Assembly (NCBI GenBank): GCA_945883565.1
Contig: CAMCXO010000019.1
Location: forward strand, 1 to 55,594
Origin: Chryseobacterium gleum
GTDB lineage: Bacteria; Bacteroidota; Bacteroidia; Flavobacteriales; Schleiferiaceae
Length of the DNA stretch: 55,594 nucleotides
Reading direction: 5' to 3'
Shown here: positions 1 to 8,008 of the stretch, piece by piece
Position numbering within the stretch: the stretch's first letter is position 1
Layout of the letters: every line of letters starts with the position of its first letter
The notes under the pieces: generated by a model
Database searches by the model: none
Told to the model about the DNA's origin: nothing
The model's input: only the letters and a program-made list of their open reading frames with translations
Made by a program: the position numbers and the translations under genes

Positions 1-1
1 A

Positions 2-484
2 TTAACAAGAGCAGAACTCAAAGACCCAAAGCTAAAAGCTTGTGGTTGGAGCGTTGTGGAAGGCTCTAACGTCCTTCGTGAATACAACATCACGTCAGGT
101 AAAATTCAAACAGGTGTTGGCTGGTCCGTGAGCGGTGTCGAACGGAGGGGCAAAAGAGAAATTGCCGATTATGTGTTGGTTTACAAAGGCATCAAATTGG
201 CAGTGGTAGAAGCCAAAAGAGATGAATTGGAAGTGGGCGAATGCGAAATGCAATCCAAGAAATATGCGGAGAAATTAAAATTAGATACCACATACAGTAC
301 CAACGGAAAAGCCATTTACCAAATCTGTATGAAATAAGGCGAAGAAGGATTGGTCGCCAATTTTCTTAGCCCTGACGAACTTTGTAATAAAATATATCCG
401 GTGGCTTCGACAAGCTTATATGAGCCCGAAACAGACATTTTAAGACCACCAACGCTGCGATCCAAAATACATACCCTCAAATAA
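2..484 (+). pseudogene. hsdR: Type I restriction endonuclease HsdR, N-terminal remnant
   Basis: The reading frame is open from the left edge, so the true start lies outside the window. The opening residues (TRAELKDPKLKACGW) match the usual HsdR N-terminus. The nuclease core is visible as IADYVLVYKGIKLAVVEAKR, where the D and the E-A-K form the PD-(D/E)xK site that cleaves DNA. The frame stops at TAA 335-337 inside the conserved stretch ICMK-stop-GEEGLVANFLSPDEL, where the family has Thr after Lys. Recognisable HsdR sequence resumes after the stop, and a second stop follows at 482-484. The helicase motor and the rest of a roughly 1000-residue protein are missing. The gene is therefore dead by at least one nonsense change and a large deletion. 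No hsdM is visible. Confidence 0.85.
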
Positions 485-551
485 GAAATCTATCAAAAGC
501 CTTATTACTCCCCTTATTTGACGCTGATTTCAAAAATATTCGTTGCTTTGA

Positions 552-884
552 AATGGGTTTTTAGACGGACTGACGGTATTTGGTATCAAATCAAGATTGT
601 TAAAGAAAATCTCAATTCCTTTCCCAAAATCAATAGATGAACAACAAACCATTGTCGACCAATTAGATGCCCTGCGAGCCGAAACACAGAAGTTGGAAGC
701 GGTGTATCAAAAGAAAATAGATGATTTGGAAGAATTGAAAAAATGGATTTTGCAAAAGGCTTTTGTAGGGGAGTTGCGTGGTGGTGTGCCTGCCGAACCA
801 AAAACTGAAAAATCCCGAAGGGATGAAAAGTTTATAGAAAACAAAATTAACCACCCACAGCCCAACCCCGAAGGGGTGAAATGA
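552..884 (+). pseudogene. hsdS: Type I restriction specificity subunit HsdS, C-terminal remnant
   Basis: The open frame begins just after a stop at 549-551. It encodes the end of a target-recognition domain (FLDGLTVFGIKS) and the distal conserved helix of HsdS: LLKKISIPFPKSIDEQQTIVDQLDALR followed by a heptad-like EELKKWILQKAFVGEL. In this family that region is the coiled coil that spaces the two DNA-recognition domains. The upstream half is absent and no good start codon exists; TTG 597 is only the first start-like codon. The last six codons (NPEGVK) are encoded by an inverted copy of the core of the repeat array that follows, so the C-terminus has been rewritten by repeat DNA. It is probably joined to the HsdR remnant by a deletion. 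Confidence 0.75.
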
Positions 885-934
885 TTATAACAATGAACAT
901 ACCACCTACAATAAAATCCTGAAGGGGTGAAATA
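864..934 (-). repeat. Two inverted half-copies of the array core
   Basis: Positions 864-878 are the exact reverse complement of the 15-base array core CACCCCTTCGGGGTT. Positions 919-934 carry a degenerate second copy (CCTGAAGGGGTGAAAT). Both are followed by GAAAT, so they share a longer flank with each other. They sit head-to-head with the direct array that starts at 941. The first encodes the tail of the HsdS remnant. Confidence 0.8.
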
Positions 935-940
935 AATGCC

Positions 941-1890
941 ACCCCTTCGGGGTTGGGATACCCCTCGTTAACGTATTTCTATAATCTTGCCACCCCTTCG
1001 GGGTTGGGATGCCCCTCGTTAACGTATTTCTATAATCCTGACACCCCTTCGGGGTTGGGATGCCCTTCGTTAACGTATTTCTATAATCCTGACACCCCTT
1101 CGGGGTTGGGATACCCTTCGTTATCGCATTTCTATAATCCTAACACCCCTTCGGGGTTGGGATGCCCTACGTTAACGCATTTCTATAATCCTGACACCCC
1201 TTCGGGGTTGGGATACCCCTCGTTAACGTATTTCTATAATCCTGACACCCCTTCGGGGTTGGGATGCCCTTCGTTAACGCATTTCTATAATCCTAACACC
1301 CCTTCGGGGTTGGGATGCCCTACGTTAACGTATTTCTATAATCTTGCCACCCCTTCGGGGTTGGGATGCCCTTCGTTAACGCATTTCTATAATCTTGCCA
1401 CCCCTTCGGGGTTGGGATACCCCTCGTTAACGTATTTCTATAATCCTGACACCCCTTCGGGGTTGAAATGCCATTTCTATACCGGATGCTATAATCTTGC
1501 CACCCCTTCGGGGTTGGGATGCCCTTCGTTAACGCATTTCTATAATCCTAACACCCCTTCGGGGTTGGGATACTCTTCGTTAACGCATTTCTATAATCTT
1601 GCCACCCCTTCGGGGTTGGGATGCCCCTCGTTAACGCATTTCTATAATCTTGCCACCCCTTCGGGGTTGGGATGCCATTTCTATACCGGATGCTATAATC
1701 TTGCCACCCCTTCGGGGTTGGGATACCCCTCGTTAACGCATTTCTATAATCTTGCCACCCCTTCGGGGTTGGGATGCCCTTCGTTAACGCATTTCTATAA
1801 TCTTGTCACCCCTTCGGGGTTGGGATGCCCTTCGTTAACGCATTTCTATAATCTTGTCACCCCTTCGGGGTTGGGACGCCCTTCGTTAAC
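941..1890 (+). repeat. 19-copy tandem array of a 51-bp hairpin-bearing unit
   Basis: The core ACCCCTTCGGGGT starts at 941, 992, 1043 and so on every 51 bases to 1859, giving 19 copies with no insertion or deletion. The core is a perfect inverted repeat (ACCCC, TTC, GGGGT) that could fold in RNA with a UUCG-type loop. The rest of a typical unit is GGGATGCCCTTCGTTAACG followed by CATTTCTATAATC and TTGC, with substitutions at a handful of positions (T/C, A/G). Two units (1451-1501 and 1655-1705) replace the middle with a different block (CCATTTCTATACCGGATGC) yet keep exactly 51 bases. The last copy is cut short near 1890 where the KilA-N locus begins. One forward frame is open throughout as a 17-residue repeat, but it has no ATG start. 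Confidence 0.97.
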
Positions 1891-1944
1891 TTGGTTTTTG
1901 GTTTCTGTTTAATTATGGCGAATTTGCCACAATTAGAAATGAAT

Positions 1945-2769
1945 ATGGCAAAGAATAAAAAAATAGAAGTTATTGGCAGGGAAATAAGTCTATACTCAGA
2001 GAAATCAGACGACTACATTTCACTCACAGATATGGCTCGTTATAGAGACTCGGAGCGTACTAATTATATCATTCAAAACTGGATGCGCACCCGAAGTGCC
2101 ATAGAGTTTTGTGGGCTTTGGGAACAAATGAATAACCCGGATTTTAAACGCATCGAATTCGATGCGTTTAAAAATGAATCGGGAGCCAATAGCTTTACAC
2201 TTACACCGCAAAAATGGATTGATACCACCAATGCTATCGGTATTATTTCAAAGTCTGGTCGGTATGGGGGAACTTTTGCCCACCGTGATATTGCTTTTGA
2301 ATTCGCTACCTAGATAAGTGCTGAATTCAAATTCTATCTAATTAAGGAATTCCAACGCCTCAAAGAAGACGAAAACAACCGCCAAAAGCTCGATTGGAAC
2401 CTGCAGCGCACCCTTGCTAAGGTAAATTATACGATTCATACCGATGCCATTAAGGAACGGCTGATTCCCGAGAAACTCACCGGAAAACAAACGTCTTTGG
2501 TCTATGCTTCCGAAGCAGATTTACTGAACATGGCACTTTTTGGCAAAACTGCTGCGGATTGGAGAGCTGAAAATCCGGATGCCAAAGGAAATATGCGGGA
2601 TGATGCCACACTGGAACAACTGGTAGTGCTCTCCAATATGGAAAGCATCAATGCCGTGCTGATTCGGCAAGAACTCAGCCAATCGGAACGGCTTACCCAA
2701 CTGAACCAAATTGCCATTACCCAAATGACTTCTTTGGTCAATAATGCGAACCTGAAAAAACTGAAATAA
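1945..2769 (+). pseudogene. KilA-N domain protein with one amber stop
   Basis: The start is taken at ATG 1945 (MAKNKKIEVIGREISLY), with ATG 1915 and 1939 as alternatives; sequence before that belongs to the repeat edge. The first 120 residues show a KilA-N fold: YISLTDMARYRD, an NWMRTRSAIEFCGLWEQ block and WIDTTNAIGIISKSGRYGGTFAHRDIAFEFAT. TAG at 2311-2313 then interrupts a motif that normally reads FEFASWISPEF, so a Trp codon has probably become TAG. The same frame continues without other damage to TAA 2769, covering the usual C-terminal helical part. KilA-N domains bind DNA and are found in phages, mobile elements and stand-alone bacterial genes. Either the gene is recently dead or it depends on readthrough. 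Confidence 0.8.
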
Positions 2770-2772
2770 TGA

Positions 2773-2806
2773 GCCACAAATGCACGAATATATGTGCATT
2801 TGTGGC
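2773..2806. repeat. Perfect 13-bp inverted repeat (hairpin)
   Basis: GCCACAAATGCAC at 2773-2785 and GTGCATTTGTGGC at 2794-2806 are exact reverse complements around an 8-base AT-rich loop. No T-run follows directly on the plus strand, so it is not a canonical terminator for the KilA-N gene. It lies 17 bases before the GxxExxY stub and may be a repeat that travels with that gene family. Confidence 0.9.
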
Positions 2807-2823
2807 CTAAAAAATATAACAAT

Positions 2824-2934
2824 ATGAGCGAGATCATTTATAAACAAGAATCATATAAAATCACAAAGCAATTTCAAAGATTTGAAAGTGCCAATGAATT
2901 ATGTGGCAGGCAGTATACAGCCGAAGAGGCTTAG
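2824..2934 (+). pseudogene. GxxExxY-family protein, 5' stub
   Basis: ATG 2824 opens MSEIIYKQESYKI, which resembles the N-terminus of GxxExxY-family proteins (usually about 120-130 residues). After about 13 residues the similarity ends, and the frame stops at TAG 2932-2934 with an unrelated tail. The GxxExxY motif itself is absent. The rest of the gene appears to have been deleted or replaced. The identification rests on a short match and on context. Confidence 0.45.
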
Positions 2935-3102
2935 TAGGACCACACAACGGAGCTCGCCTGGCCGCCCGACATGATGAACCGCTAAAAAGCCATCCTATTA
3001 AAAAACTCAACTTCCTTTTTCTTCCCAATTTAACAGCTTTTTTGCCCATTTACCCAAGCAAACAGGTTTGAATTGCAAAGCTTTGGTGCCATCTTTGCCC
3101 GC
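2935..3102. other. Non-coding junction without recognised content
   Basis: This stretch links the accessory remnants to the sensor-kinase gene. I find no convincing frame, tRNA, terminator or repeat. The frame of the kinase is open back to TTG 3073, but that extension gives a poor signal peptide. Confidence 0.5.
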
Positions 3103-5775
3103 ATGGTTTCTTTACGCCTAAAATTTGGGCTTTGCCTTTGGGTTTTTGCTCTCTTTTTTTGGTCTATTGGGCATAGCCTGTATGCCCAAACCTTTAGAAT
3201 TAAGCCACCAAACCTTTTCAATTCGGCTTATGGCGATTCAATCCAGCCGGTGTTCCAATATGAGCTATTGGCTATCGACTCGACCCCTCTTTTTCAAATA
3301 AAGCAAAAGCTAGGGTCCAATCCGCCTGGGGCTTTCATAAACCTTAGGCTCGAAAATGCCGACCATTTAAGCGGCGCTCTTTATTTGCGTTTCTGCCGTT
3401 TGGCCGAAAACGTGGCCGTTTTTAGAATATTGAACGACAGTGTAACATATTCGCCATTAAATCAAAGCTCGAAGGGCCATATTACCCTGCTGCCGAGTTC
3501 GCAGCATTATTACCATTTGCCGATAGGCATGGGGCAAGTAGAACACTTGCTTTTGTATTTAGAGTTTCCTGAAAACATGGCCGATCCGCATTATAAAGAG
3601 CTGTTTTTGTCTGATGCACAACAGCTTGAAAAGCACTATATGGATGTGGTTACTTGGCAGTCGTTGTATGCAGGCATGGTTTGGTTCATCGTGCTTTTGT
3701 CGCTGGTTTCGGCTTATTTCTTAAAAGACCGTTCTCTTTTGTTTTTCGGTTTTCATATGGTATTCTGGATACCCTATTTCCAAATGCAACACAATTTAAT
3801 TAGTTTTTGGGACCAATTGCTGCCAACTCTCAATATGTTTGAGCAAAGCTCGTTTAATATTGTTTTTTTATTGGGCTTCGCATCGTTGTTTGCCTCCGAA
3901 TTTTTAGAGCTTAACCGCAGGCTGGGCAAGGGCTTTTGGGTTTTTTCAGGGGTAAATATTTTGGTGGTAGGTCTGCTGCTTTACTCTACTTTTTTCCATT
4001 TTTTACAATGGATGAATTATCCGCTTGTATTGGTTTTGCTTATGTATTTGCTTATGGCCATGTATTTAAGCATTAAAGGCGTTAAAGCGGCACAACATCT
4101 GTTAATTTCCATATCGGCCTTGCTTGTTGGGGGGCTGGTTATGAGTTTAACACTATCGGGCATGGTGGCTTCAACGCCTTTTACCCCCTATTTTTTCCAA
4201 CTTGGTTCGCTCATTTTCTCGCTTATTCTGTTCTTTAGTTTGGCTAAGCGCATAAGCAAAATTCGCCGCGACAAGCGTGAAGCCGAGAATCTGATTAGCA
4301 TCAAAACGCGCTTCTTTCAAGATATTTCGCATGAGTTGAGAAGCCCGCTAAGTCTGGTTATCAACCCCATACGCAAGGTGTACAGCGAATTGCCACCTGG
4401 TTCTCTGAAAGAGGAAATGGCCGTGGCCAAGAATGCCGGCGAGGGATTGGAAAATTTGGTCAACCAAATTCTGGATCTAAGCAAGCACGAGTTTAAGCCA
4501 CCACCACTACGATTGGTTTCAGGCAATTTAAACACCTTTTTACGCACCTTATGCAGCCAATACAGCTCCATGGCCGAAAGCCGACAAATAACACTTAGCT
4601 ACTCTGGGACCCAACAAGCCTTGGTATGTGCATATGATGCCGAAAAAATGCAGCAAATGGTGTCCAATTTAATAACCAATGCATTAAAGTTCACCCCTTC
4701 GGGAGGGCAGGTGGAGGTAAGTTTGAAGGCATTAACCGAAGAAACAGTCGAAATTAAGGTTGCCGACACCGGAATGGGCATTAGCGCCAAAGCATTGCCA
4801 CACATTTTTAACCGTTTTTATCAAGATCCTGAGGCCCCACCCCAAGCCCAGCCCGGCACGGGCATTGGCTTGGCCTTGTGTAAAGCGCTGGTAGTTCAGC
4901 ATAATGGAAGTATAGAAGTTGAAAGTACACCCCAAAAGGGCAGTACGTTTATAGTTCGCATGCCTTTGGGATTGCTGAAGCCCTCGGAAATCGTTGGTTC
5001 AAAGGAGGCAGTTGCGAATGGACGCAGCTACAAACCTTTGGTTTTGGTAGCCGAAGACCATCCGGATTTACGTACCTATTTAAAGCAATGTTTAAGCGAA
5101 ACGTATGAGGTAATTACCGCCAAAAATGGACAAGAAGCCTGGCAGTTTGCCCAGGAGCGGCTTCCCGATATTGTGCTAAGCGATTTGATGATGCCCGATT
5201 TGAATGGCATTGAGTTAACACGAAACCTTAAGTCGAATAAGCAAACATGCCATATTCCGGTCTTGTTGCTTACCGCCAAATCAGATCAGGATTCGGTTAA
5301 TGAAGGATTGGCTGCCGGGGCCGATGACTATATATCTAAACCCTTTAACAGCGATGAGTTATTGCTGCGGTTGGCGAATATTTTAAAACAACTAGAAGCC
5401 TGGCGACAAAGAGTGGCCAACCTTGATTTGCCGAAGGTGGCCGAAAATACCCTCAATAAAATAGACAAAGCGTTTCTTAAACAACTGGAAGAGCTGCTGG
5501 GAAATTCGTTTTCTAATCCCGGGTTTGGGGTAGAAGAGCTGGCCGAAATGATAGGTATGAGCAAAACCCATCTCAACCGAAAGCTCAATACCCTATTGGG
5601 GCATCCGGCCAACAAAATGATTCAGAACTACCGTTTGCGCGAAGCCCGAAAGATGCTGACCGAGAAACAGGGCAATGTTTCGGAAATTGCCTTTTCTTGT
5701 GGGTTTAATAGCCCCGCTTATTTTGTGAAGTGCTTCAAAGAAAAGTACCACGAAACCCCGGGTCAGATGCTCTAA
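3103..5775 (+). CDS. Hybrid sensor histidine kinase/response regulator with AraC-type output
   Basis: ATG 3103 is chosen over TTG 3073 because it gives a clean signal peptide (about residues 1-29, ending YAQ). Domains in order: an extracellular 7TMR-DISM sensor region (about 40-170), a seven-helix membrane block (about 185-385), HisKA with phospho-acceptor His410 in DISHELRSP, HATPase (NLITNALKF, DTGMGIS, GTGIGLAL), a receiver with Asp694 in LSDLMMPD and Lys in YISKPF, and a C-terminal AraC helix-turn-helix ending in CGFNSPAYFVKCFKEKYHETPGQ. One protein thus senses outside the membrane, relays phosphate to itself and binds DNA. The ligand is not evident. Many Bacteroidota hybrid regulators control polysaccharide loci, but no susC/susD pair lies nearby. 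The gene just downstream on the same strand is a T9SS-exported protein, a possible target. Confidence 0.93.
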   Translation: MVSLRLKFGLCLWVFALFFWSIGHSLYAQTFRIKPPNLFNSAYGDSIQPVFQYELLAIDSTPLFQIKQKLGSNPPGAFINLRLENADHLSGALYLRFCRLAENVAVFRILNDSVTYSPLNQSSKGHITLLPSSQHYYHLPIGMGQVEHLLLYLEFPENMADPHYKELFLSDAQQLEKHYMDVVTWQSLYAGMVWFIVLLSLVSAYFLKDRSLLFFGFHMVFWIPYFQMQHNLISFWDQLLPTLNMFEQSSFNIVFLLGFASLFASEFLELNRRLGKGFWVFSGVNILVVGLLLYSTFFHFLQWMNYPLVLVLLMYLLMAMYLSIKGVKAAQHLLISISALLVGGLVMSLTLSGMVASTPFTPYFFQLGSLIFSLILFFSLAKRISKIRRDKREAENLISIKTRFFQDISHELRSPLSLVINPIRKVYSELPPGSLKEEMAVAKNAGEGLENLVNQILDLSKHEFKPPPLRLVSGNLNTFLRTLCSQYSSMAESRQITLSYSGTQQALVCAYDAEKMQQMVSNLITNALKFTPSGGQVEVSLKALTEETVEIKVADTGMGISAKALPHIFNRFYQDPEAPPQAQPGTGIGLALCKALVVQHNGSIEVESTPQKGSTFIVRMPLGLLKPSEIVGSKEAVANGRSYKPLVLVAEDHPDLRTYLKQCLSETYEVITAKNGQEAWQFAQERLPDIVLSDLMMPDLNGIELTRNLKSNKQTCHIPVLLLTAKSDQDSVNEGLAAGADDYISKPFNSDELLLRLANILKQLEAWRQRVANLDLPKVAENTLNKIDKAFLKQLEELLGNSFSNPGFGVEELAEMIGMSKTHLNRKLNTLLGHPANKMIQNYRLREARKMLTEKQGNVSEIAFSCGFNSPAYFVKCFKEKYHETPGQML

Positions 5776-5896
5776 GCGGGTTAAAACGCCCATTTTTACT
5801 AAAAAGAGTCGAAATTTTATACATGCTGTTTCAAATTTGATACAAACGAAATGGCGTTTAGCGCCTCTTTTGCACCAAACAAAAAACAATTCTTGT

Positions 5897-7069
5897 ATGA
5901 GAAAAATGCTCTACACCCTTTCGAGTTTAATAGGCCTTTCGGCCTTTGCTGTTGCTCAAAGCATCAATTTTCAAAACTACCGCTTGCCCAATGCACAGAG
6001 CGACCGCTACATTGTGGCTACTCCCGGTACCTTTTCGGTTGCTTCGACCGGTTCTAATCAAGTATGGGACTATAGCGGGGTAGGGGCTTTGAGAAACGAT
6101 TCGGTGCCTTATTTCAGTGCGGTCGACAGCACCAATGGCTATCCCGATGTACATACTTTTGTTTATCGACCACTGGTAAGCCCTACCGGAGCGCCCATAA
6201 ATTCGTATTTGTTTTATAACATAGATGCCAGCGGATTTTACAACGCCGCCGACTTTACAGAACCTTTTAGCGAAAGCCTCGCCGCTGCCACCGGAGGAGC
6301 CAATGACGCTTTGGTTATTCCGGGTCAGCGAAATACTTTTAACAATGGGGTATACGCGTTGAAGTTTCCGGTTACCAACCAGAGTTCCTGGACAGGTTCA
6401 CAAAACCGTTTTTTGAACTTTAACCTTACCATTGCTGCTTATGGTCTAAGTGGAGTGCCAGGCTATTTTAAGGCCACCGAAAGCGAAACCCGCACAGTGG
6501 TAGGCGATGGCAACCTGATTATTAAAGACGAAAATGGCAATGCCATGCCACCCATTCCGGTGTTTATGATAAATGTTATTAGCACCACTGTAGACAGTAT
6601 TTATTTGGGAGGCGCTCCGGCTCCGGCTGCTTTAATGAATGCGTTTGGACTTACGCAGGGCGTAACTTTCATCGAAAGATTTGTTGTGTTTTACGATCAA
6701 AACGGCACCGGACTTCCCATTGCCTCTTATACCCTGGACGCCAACAATAACCCCCAATTTATGACCTATCGTCCGAGTGCCGCACGCACCGCATTGGGTA
6801 TAGGTTTGGCAGAAAACCAAGCTCAAAACCTCAATGTTTATCCAAACCCGGTACAAGCCGGCTCGCGTTTAATCTTAAGTTTTGAAAACCAAACCAAAGC
6901 CTATGGCTATAGCTTGTTTACCACGGGCGGAATTAAAGTGCAAAGTGGCAAAATAGACGGCCAACAAATCCTCGACATTCCGGCTCATACCAAATCCGGA
7001 CTGTATATACTAAGTCTACAAGACCAAAACGGACTGCCCTTAACCCAAACCAAGGTACAGGTTCAATAG
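5897..7069 (+). CDS. Secreted protein with T9SS type A sorting domain
   Basis: ATG 5897 is preferred over ATG 5837 because MRKMLYTLSSLIGLSAFAVAQ is a textbook signal peptide, giving 390 residues. The C-terminal 80 residues form a T9SS type A sorting domain: LNVYPNPV, then strands ending in SGLYILSLQ and TKVQVQ. Proteins with this tail cross the inner membrane by Sec and the outer membrane by T9SS, and the tail is usually removed at the surface. The body (about 25-300) is beta-rich with many Asn, Thr and Gly, and I recognise no catalytic motif. A strong terminator follows at 7086. The gene is co-directional with the hybrid kinase, 121 bases away. Function unknown. Confidence 0.85.
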   Translation: MRKMLYTLSSLIGLSAFAVAQSINFQNYRLPNAQSDRYIVATPGTFSVASTGSNQVWDYSGVGALRNDSVPYFSAVDSTNGYPDVHTFVYRPLVSPTGAPINSYLFYNIDASGFYNAADFTEPFSESLAAATGGANDALVIPGQRNTFNNGVYALKFPVTNQSSWTGSQNRFLNFNLTIAAYGLSGVPGYFKATESETRTVVGDGNLIIKDENGNAMPPIPVFMINVISTTVDSIYLGGAPAPAALMNAFGLTQGVTFIERFVVFYDQNGTGLPIASYTLDANNNPQFMTYRPSAARTALGIGLAENQAQNLNVYPNPVQAGSRLILSFENQTKAYGYSLFTTGGIKVQSGKIDGQQILDIPAHTKSGLYILSLQDQNGLPLTQTKVQVQ

Positions 7070-7085
7070 GTTTTACCATAAAATT

Positions 7086-7126
7086 ATCCCCATACAGTCA
7101 GGTTCGATTGTATGGGGATTTTTTTT
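7086..7126 (+). terminator. Rho-independent terminator
   Basis: ATCCCCATACA (7086-7096) pairs perfectly with TGTATGGGGAT (7109-7119) around a 12-base loop and is followed by a T-run. It ends the transcript of the T9SS cargo gene. Confidence 0.93.
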
Positions 7127-7210
7127 GTTCGTACCGCAGGGTGCCTCCGCCTGGGTTATGCAAATGGCGCGTTTTCAATGATCTTTTACCACCCACACCC
7201 AAATGGCCGT

Positions 7211-8008
7211 TCAATTTGTTTTATAGGCTTTCATATTTTGCCAAAGGCTTGTGTCTATGGCTTCTGTATACTCAACATCTTCGAACTCGGTGGCTTTTTG
7301 CCACAAATAGCTCATGCGCTCCCTGGTTTGGGGATGTGTTCCCAGCCATTTCAGCTCGGTAGGCATTTCTGGTTCGGTTTTAGCCAAATTGGCCATAAAA
7401 TCGGCTAAAGCATCGGGTTTTATTTGAGCGTTTACGAGGTAATCTACAGCCATTAGATCGGCTTCTTTTTCCAATCCACGGTCGAAAGCGGTTGAAGCCA
7501 ACATTTTGGCAGTTTCTTTGGCTAAATCGCCTCCAGCTCCACCACCACTCATAGAAACAAGCACCGACAACCCAATTTCTTTCATAAGCTTTTGGGCTAC
7601 GTGGCCTTCAATAATATGGGCCATTTCGTGTGCCATAACCCCAGCCAGTTCGTCGCTGCTTCTGCAAGCTTCTATTAATCCCGAAAATACCACCATATGG
7701 CTGTCGGGCAGAGCAAAGGCGTTTATTACCGGTTCGTTTACCACATGCAATTGAAACGTTTTTCGATTAAAACCATTTTTGTCGCACAATCGGGTCAAAA
7801 TGCTGTCGCATCCTGCATAAAGTATGGTATGGTCTAAAACATCGTCTTCGTTTTCGAATTGTTTCCAGAGCAATTCACCTAGTTTTTCTTCCGATTTTTG
7901 GCTGAGCTCCTGCACTTTGAGCAGTTGTATCCAATCTATTTGCTGCAACAGAAACCACAGTCCAAAAAAAGACAGCAACAGGAATAAGAGTTTTGATGCC
8001 AATTTCAT
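7211..8008 (-). CDS. M48-family membrane metallopeptidase
   Basis: This 265-residue protein begins with a hydrophobic segment (residues 7-29) that acts as a membrane anchor or uncleaved signal. The zinc site is HEMAH (His127, Glu128, His131), with the third ligand Glu182 in EKEADLMAVDYL, which is the M48 arrangement. A Gly-rich segment (SGGGAGG, about 154-160) lies between them. M48 enzymes of this size (LoiP/BepA-like) work in the periplasm on misfolded envelope proteins. It is the last gene of a four-gene operon, with its ATG one base after the stop of the DUF4870-like gene. The three genes ahead of it all encode small membrane proteins. Confidence 0.9.
   Translation of the reverse strand: MKLASKLLFLLLSFFGLWFLLQQIDWIQLLKVQELSQKSEEKLGELLWKQFENEDDVLDHTILYAGCDSILTRLCDKNGFNRKTFQLHVVNEPVINAFALPDSHMVVFSGLIEACRSSDELAGVMAHEMAHIIEGHVAQKLMKEIGLSVLVSMSGGGAGGDLAKETAKMLASTAFDRGLEKEADLMAVDYLVNAQIKPDALADFMANLAKTEPEMPTELKWLGTHPQTRERMSYLWQKATEFEDVEYTEAIDTSLWQNMKAYKTN

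Follow-up and report, generated by a model that had tools for sequence, protein, structure and literature searches.

Both TnpA_REP and the IS608 TnpA recognise their own hairpin, together with a tag, on single-stranded DNA (PMC8266576). The TIRtrons, with their TIRYT genes, are Y1 transposase genes accompanied by flanking inverted repeats of a non-GTAG kind, some of which are dispersed (PMC3733652), and BIMEs are composed of units that alternate in orientation (PMC2817692). One little-studied group of Y1 transposases, TnpA_Y1 subclass 1.2, is entered in Table 1 of Quentin et al. (2018) as "REP: no" and is described in the text of the same paper as generally being without IS200-type terminal structures (PMC6006769). 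No paper describing the 51-bp repeat that is the subject of this report was found among the openly licensed literature.

The window, by which we mean the whole stretch of 55,594 nucleotides that was analysed, is contig 19 of a 2.86-Mb draft genome that is 99% complete. Judging from sequence comparison, the array of 51-bp units that it carries is probably the tandem-expanded arm of a non-autonomous, four-hairpin, REP-like element of the Y1/HUH TnpA_Y1 subclass 1.2, and is most likely to be seen as an orphan REP-like array derived from one arm of a MITE-like element. The array itself represents an extreme local case; more interesting is the link to a transposase group that has been listed as repeat-free.

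The array, the opposite arm and the flanking genes

TRF describes positions 937-1890 as a repeat of period 51 with 18.7 copies, 90% matches and 0% indels. On the - strand, the order within a unit is AACCCCGAAGGGGTG, 4 variable bases, GATTATAG and a 24-nt spacer that is of one of two types. The array contains 19 hairpin cores, and all 18 spacings between them on this strand are exactly 51, such that the sequence-only reading, which had reported 19 cores in the window at a 51-bp period without indels, is confirmed by TRF and by the - strand spacings alike. Unit comparison likewise bears out its remark that two units (1447-1497 and 1651-1701) share an alternative middle block, and the same alternative-spacer variant is found as an adjacent pair in both of the arrays that lie on contig 28. 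The hairpin was read at that time as being of the UUCG type. A UUCG tetraloop was rejected on the basis of the predicted folds and the covariation register, which agree instead on a 5-bp stem closed by a triloop; the 15-mer folds with a GAA triloop, ACCCC(GAA)GGGGT / ACCCC(TTC)GGGGT. Across the 18 units the hairpin positions are invariant, and elsewhere 20 of the 51 unit positions are variable.

The feature is larger than was first described, in that opposite-orientation copies at about 811-940 belong to it as well. Three reverse-orientation copies of the repeat lie there. Two of these fall inside, or overlap, the 3' end of an hsdS remnant, and around 940 the arms come together head to head. 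The features of the locus are as follows:

2-337, + strand: hsdR N-terminal remnant (Pfam HSDR_N)
597-884, + strand: hsdS C-terminal remnant (Pfam Methylase_S, just under the cut-off)
811-890, + strand: two opposite-arm copies (ATCCCGAAGGGATGAAAAGTTTATAG, AACCCCGAAGGGGTGAAATGATTATAA) that overlap the final codons of the hsdS remnant (pattern search)
916-957, strand not applicable: element centre with the arms head to head, CCTGAAGGGGTGAAATAAATGCCACCCCTTCGGGG (near-identical centre on contigs 28, 31 and 6)
937-1890, - strand: tandem array of 18 complete 51-bp units and 1 partial unit (TRF, unit lists)
979-1002, - strand: example core, a triloop hairpin with the tag GATTATAG at a set distance after it (pattern search, folds, tag consensus)
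1447-1497, - strand: variant unit with the alternative spacer CATCCGGTATAGAAATGGCATTTC (unit comparison)
1651-1701, - strand: second alternative-spacer unit, 4 units from the first (unit comparison)
1891-2769, + strand: KilA-N domain gene with an in-frame TAG (ORF, Pfam KilA-N)

The in-frame TAG of the KilA-N gene reflects either a pseudogene or an assembly error. Among the ORFs of the window, none at the array locus encodes a transposase. The hsdS copy on contig 28 retains its own ending at the point where the repeat starts on contigs 19 and 31. Moreover, hsdS-like 3' fragments are dispersed in the genome (contig 8:15571, 28:31711, 31:2123 and 62:5226), several of them near repeat loci.

Related copies in the host genome and beyond

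With at most 3 mismatches allowed, the core pattern matches 84 sites in the host genome, made up of the core family and a related family, and the reversed control pattern matches 0. A search of this genome with the core, which had been proposed as a check, reveals four more arrays and one pair. Specifically, contig 28 carries two arrays, of 14 copies and of at least 8 copies (the latter running into the contig end), contigs 31 and 6 carry one each, and the pair is on contig 8. Arrays and scattered copies therefore coexist, and the case of scattered single copies with no other array, under which the sequence-only reading would have treated the unit as a passive repeat, is not what this genome presents. 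The two-arm layout recurs in the fuller arrays of the host genome, where the expanded arm is the right one on contigs 19 and 28 and the left one on contigs 31 and 6. The contig-19 and contig-28 arrays both have the second type of spacer and agree in part of the surrounding unit order, which makes them related copies. One contig-28 array contains units of 46 and 53 bp beside those of 51 bp. Consequently, the strict length conservation that had been noted stands for the window array and falls for the family at large; these sister-array units weaken the idea of a strict local spacing constraint and make the 51-bp period a preferred family spacing.

Two further observations concern the host genome. 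It contains a second REP-like family, GCCCCGAAGGGGCGACATGATTATAG, with approximately 20 core sites, many of them close to contig ends, and this family usually occurs as two hairpins about 49-50 bp apart (e.g., contig 3:262, 3:626, 31:29141 and 62:6002). Around and between the two arrays of contig 28 (fetched stretch 1873-7453) there are an Abi_2 gene (Pfam), an hsdS fragment and several genes that, judged by eye, are like those of GxxExxY, four-helix-bundle and three-Cys-motif proteins; the region resembles a defence island.

The second proposed check, a search of other genomes, places the exact 27-base core in at least 118 stretches from several phyla. These are mainly Bacteroidota and, going by record title, also include Chloroflexi, anammox Planctomycetes, Kiritimatiellae, KSB1, Desulfonema and others. 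Same-strand cores in these genomes are spaced with a mode of 51 bp (36/177), and 102 of the 177 spacings fall at 49-53 bp. What survives of the suggested fixed spacing is thus a family preference for 51 bp, and its strictness does not. The element recurs in a form with four hairpins, arranged as outer-inner-centre-inner-outer, and comparison of its copies demonstrates its structure, layout and spread. In Loosdrechtia there are six complete copies of 204-229 bp, the left flanks of which diverge beyond about 7 bases; the right flanks are alike for some 40 bases, and these copies therefore do not define where the element ends on the right. When the array DNA was compared with 60 relatives, two family genomes matched it besides its own, and no same-genus genome among the 60 did. 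A genome labelled Chitinophaga pinensis matches window positions 1-1141 at 99.7% identity on a contig that ends inside the array, and has no match to the right flank (window 1893-3600). This contig may be horizontally shared or misbinned.

The proximity of restriction genes gives some substance to the earlier proposal that the array is a recombination substrate, with a function in a restriction locus through the reshuffling or switching of hsdS specificity. Fragments of the hsdS 3' end adjoin the repeats on contigs 19, 28 and 31 and are near those on contig 8, and they may well owe their positions to homologous exchange between arrays. However, hsdR and hsdS at the window locus are truncated remnants, no complete second hsdS or recombinase is seen among the ORFs there, and the same repeats occur without hsdS in other genomes; among the 118 core loci listed, only the near-identical locus labelled Chitinophaga pinensis has this hsdS. 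We consider such a role very unlikely.

The Y1 transposase linked to the element

When the ORFs at the 118 core loci listed were clustered, the commonest neighbour family was a Y1 transposase of about 153 aa, present at 17 loci, and at 16 of the 17 hairpins lie within 150 bp of the gene. Pfam and NCBIfam identify this core-adjacent protein as a Y1_Tnp / IS200 transposase, and its profile matches the ISDra2 and IS608 TnpA structures. Its motifs (DHVH, WQ and YILNQEEHH) and its length of about 153 aa agree with TnpA_Y1 subclass 1.2 (PMC6006769), an assignment made by motif against Table 1 of that paper (DH[IV]H, WQ, Y---Q--HH, about 148 aa). The linkage of the element to these genes is demonstrated by the loci themselves: in other genomes, the units flank subclass-1.2 tnpA genes as direct doublets about 51 bp apart. 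An expanded REP-like palindrome is the sole supported role among those that the sequence-only reading had listed.

The only full-length subclass-1.2 gene of the host genome lies on contig 23, where its hairpins are divergent and its tag is a different one. Repeated hairpin blocks, GCCCCGAAGGGGYG, point the same way on both sides of this gene (fetched stretch 980-2170), in contrast to the inverted arrangement found elsewhere. Among 50 core-bearing genomes, 38 have a transposase match at E<=1e-15. Strong relatives (E<=1e-70) are present in 21 of the 50, as opposed to 16 of 296 evenly drawn Bacteroidota, the two samples being unmatched and differing in phylum and quality. The assemblies of 12 of the 50, that of Loosdrechtia included, contain no transposase match, and the Loosdrechtia copies accordingly look orphaned, or else the gene is missing from the assembly.

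Loci were also chosen by protein, from an even sampling of Bacteroidota as well as from the host family, with IS200-model loci for comparison; the query alignment was built from REP-adjacent proteins, and the sample consequently leans to their relatives. At 62 subclass-1.2 loci (59 distinct), there are 3.18 hairpins per 200+200 bp of flank vs. 0.21 in Markov shuffles, and hairpins are found on both sides of the gene in 42 of the 62. Twelve other Y1 loci, a small mixed group with some truncated genes, have 1.75 hairpins vs. 0.26 when shuffled. Since IS200-type genes have flanking hairpins too, the presence of hairpins is by itself not enough to distinguish subclass 1.2 from these. The spacing of neighbouring hairpins at the protein-selected loci peaks at 45-54 bp (86 of 202 spacings below 150 bp). 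Stems and loops vary by locus, with ACCCC(GAA)GGGGT, GCTCC(GTA)GGAGC and CGACCCC(ATC)GGGGTCG among the types encountered, and TnpA identity correlates with hairpin identity (Mantel r 0.56, permutation maximum 0.31, n=50). As common descent of whole loci contributes to this correlation between sequences, it shows linkage but not recognition itself. The outer stem position covaries in the manner of a stem under selection for pairing: in copies left out of the selection, 225 of 238 pairs are Watson-Crick, vs. a shuffled mean of 124 and a maximum of 144.

The tag ATGATTATAG follows many hairpins at a set distance. Of 65 core-family hairpins, 33 are followed by TTATAG at a single register; the motif also follows 19 of 266 other hairpins, 18 of these 19 at the same register and some of them belonging to loci of the core clade itself. 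Another type of hairpin, CGACCCCNNNGGGGTCG, has 3-5 copies per genome, mostly at the tnpA locus; outside the close clade, hairpins need not be dispersed.

On these grounds we lean, by a slight degree, toward the view that subclass 1.2 supplies the transposases for a REP class of its own that spans several phyla, which would be typified by triloop hairpins, a CTATAATCA tag and direct doublets of about 51 nt within four-hairpin elements, the 51-nt step corresponding to a fixed dimension of a protein-DNA complex. By analogy with TnpA_REP and IS608, we infer that subclass-1.2 TnpA recognises, cleaves and mobilises the element, and that the hairpin and its tag ATGATTATAG would be recognised on single-stranded DNA. 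This would provide a candidate substrate for a transposase subclass left without one in the published classification, with a specific geometry of two hairpins about 51 nt apart plus a tag, and would account for a widespread repeat that, in draft assemblies from several phyla, is often found at the ends of contigs.

An alternative is that the hairpin acts as a structured RNA or transcript-end element in the 3' regions of neighbouring mRNAs, with selection keeping the array. Folded as RNA, the 15-nt hairpin is stable (-6.8 to -7.3 kcal/mol), and repeat copies are present at a gene 3' end. Nevertheless, an Rfam scan returned only sub-threshold matches, none above the gathering score, shuffled versions of the whole unit fold equally well (z about 0), and the association with tag and transposase is left unexplained, all of which makes this reading decidedly unlikely.

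Growth of the array and relation to known systems

If the array is the arm of a REP-like element, a subclass-1.2 transposase would once have spread the four-hairpin element, tnpA being absent at the window locus. Amplification of the inner unit of one arm would have followed, with unequal recombination or replication slippage as the probable mechanism, and multiplication in blocks of several units would have kept the 51-bp period. Among the 18 complete units, identity is 0.888 between adjacent units, 0.919 between units 4 apart and 0.900 between units 8 apart, and only one pair is identical. The peaks at offsets of 4 and 8 units suggest growth by four-unit block duplication and not by unit-by-unit conversion, though the signal is modest and is partly owed to the two variant units lying 4 apart. 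The ongoing unit-wise gene conversion that had been proposed is not needed, as adjacent units are no more alike than distant ones.

Expansion of this kind is like ordinary tandem duplication, in which the best identity at 4- and 8-unit offsets would fit a neutral minisatellite owing nothing to a mobile element; yet elsewhere the unit is dispersed, structured and transposase-linked in several phyla, and we judge this explanation highly improbable. That the array codes for 17-aa protein repeats in the frame 923-1912 can be dismissed as having next to no likelihood, for despite an open frame of 329 codons and the fact that 51 = 3 x 17, codon variants are mostly non-synonymous in all three + strand frames (4:13, 2:15, 4:14), the frame has no Pfam match, and the 46-, 50-, 52- and 53-bp units of related arrays break it.

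With respect to known systems, the REP-like element invites several comparisons. Its regular period, with a repeat of about 27 bp and a spacer of about 24 bp, recalls CRISPR. However, the spacers are not unique, as two spacer types recur, with point changes, across three arrays, and the same unit is dispersed singly. The closest protein relatives are those of IS200/IS605 (TnpA subclass 1.1), which similarly have subterminal hairpins on both sides of the gene. They differ in that here there are often at least two hairpins per side at a spacing of about 50 bp, dispersed non-autonomous copies and a low gene copy number; moreover, tnpA is not inside the element at the window locus, and the one full gene of the genome is on another contig. 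The TIRtrons share with the present loci a Y1 gene flanked by non-GTAG inverted repeats, but the listed ones have other motifs (GGGGWSAS) in common, and their description mentions neither triloop-hairpin doublets nor a TATAATC tag (PMC3733652). The REPINs and BIME-2 of Pseudomonas and E. coli are likewise non-autonomous multi-hairpin units that are at times tandem; in contrast to the alternation of BIMEs, up to 19 units here run one way, with a single head-to-head junction to the other arm.

The REP/REPtron systems of TnpA_REP (RAYT, class 2) also consist of short hairpins, each bearing a conserved tag at its foot, that cluster round a Y1/HUH gene and are dispersed elsewhere. They differ from the present family in three respects: the transposase motif here is Y---Q--HH (subclass 1.2) and not the Y---NP of class 2; the tag here, located 5' of the hairpin, reads CTATAATCA(T), or ATGATTATAG on the opposite strand, and not GT[AG]G, which is absent from the hairpin foot in the core family, where the tag is CTATAATC; and the hairpins form direct doublets about 51 bp apart. 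As in a Y1/HUH REP family, the hairpins flank the transposase above chance and are dispersed, weakly so for one other hairpin type, and, as with the RAYT REPs, the hairpin type goes with the transposase lineage.
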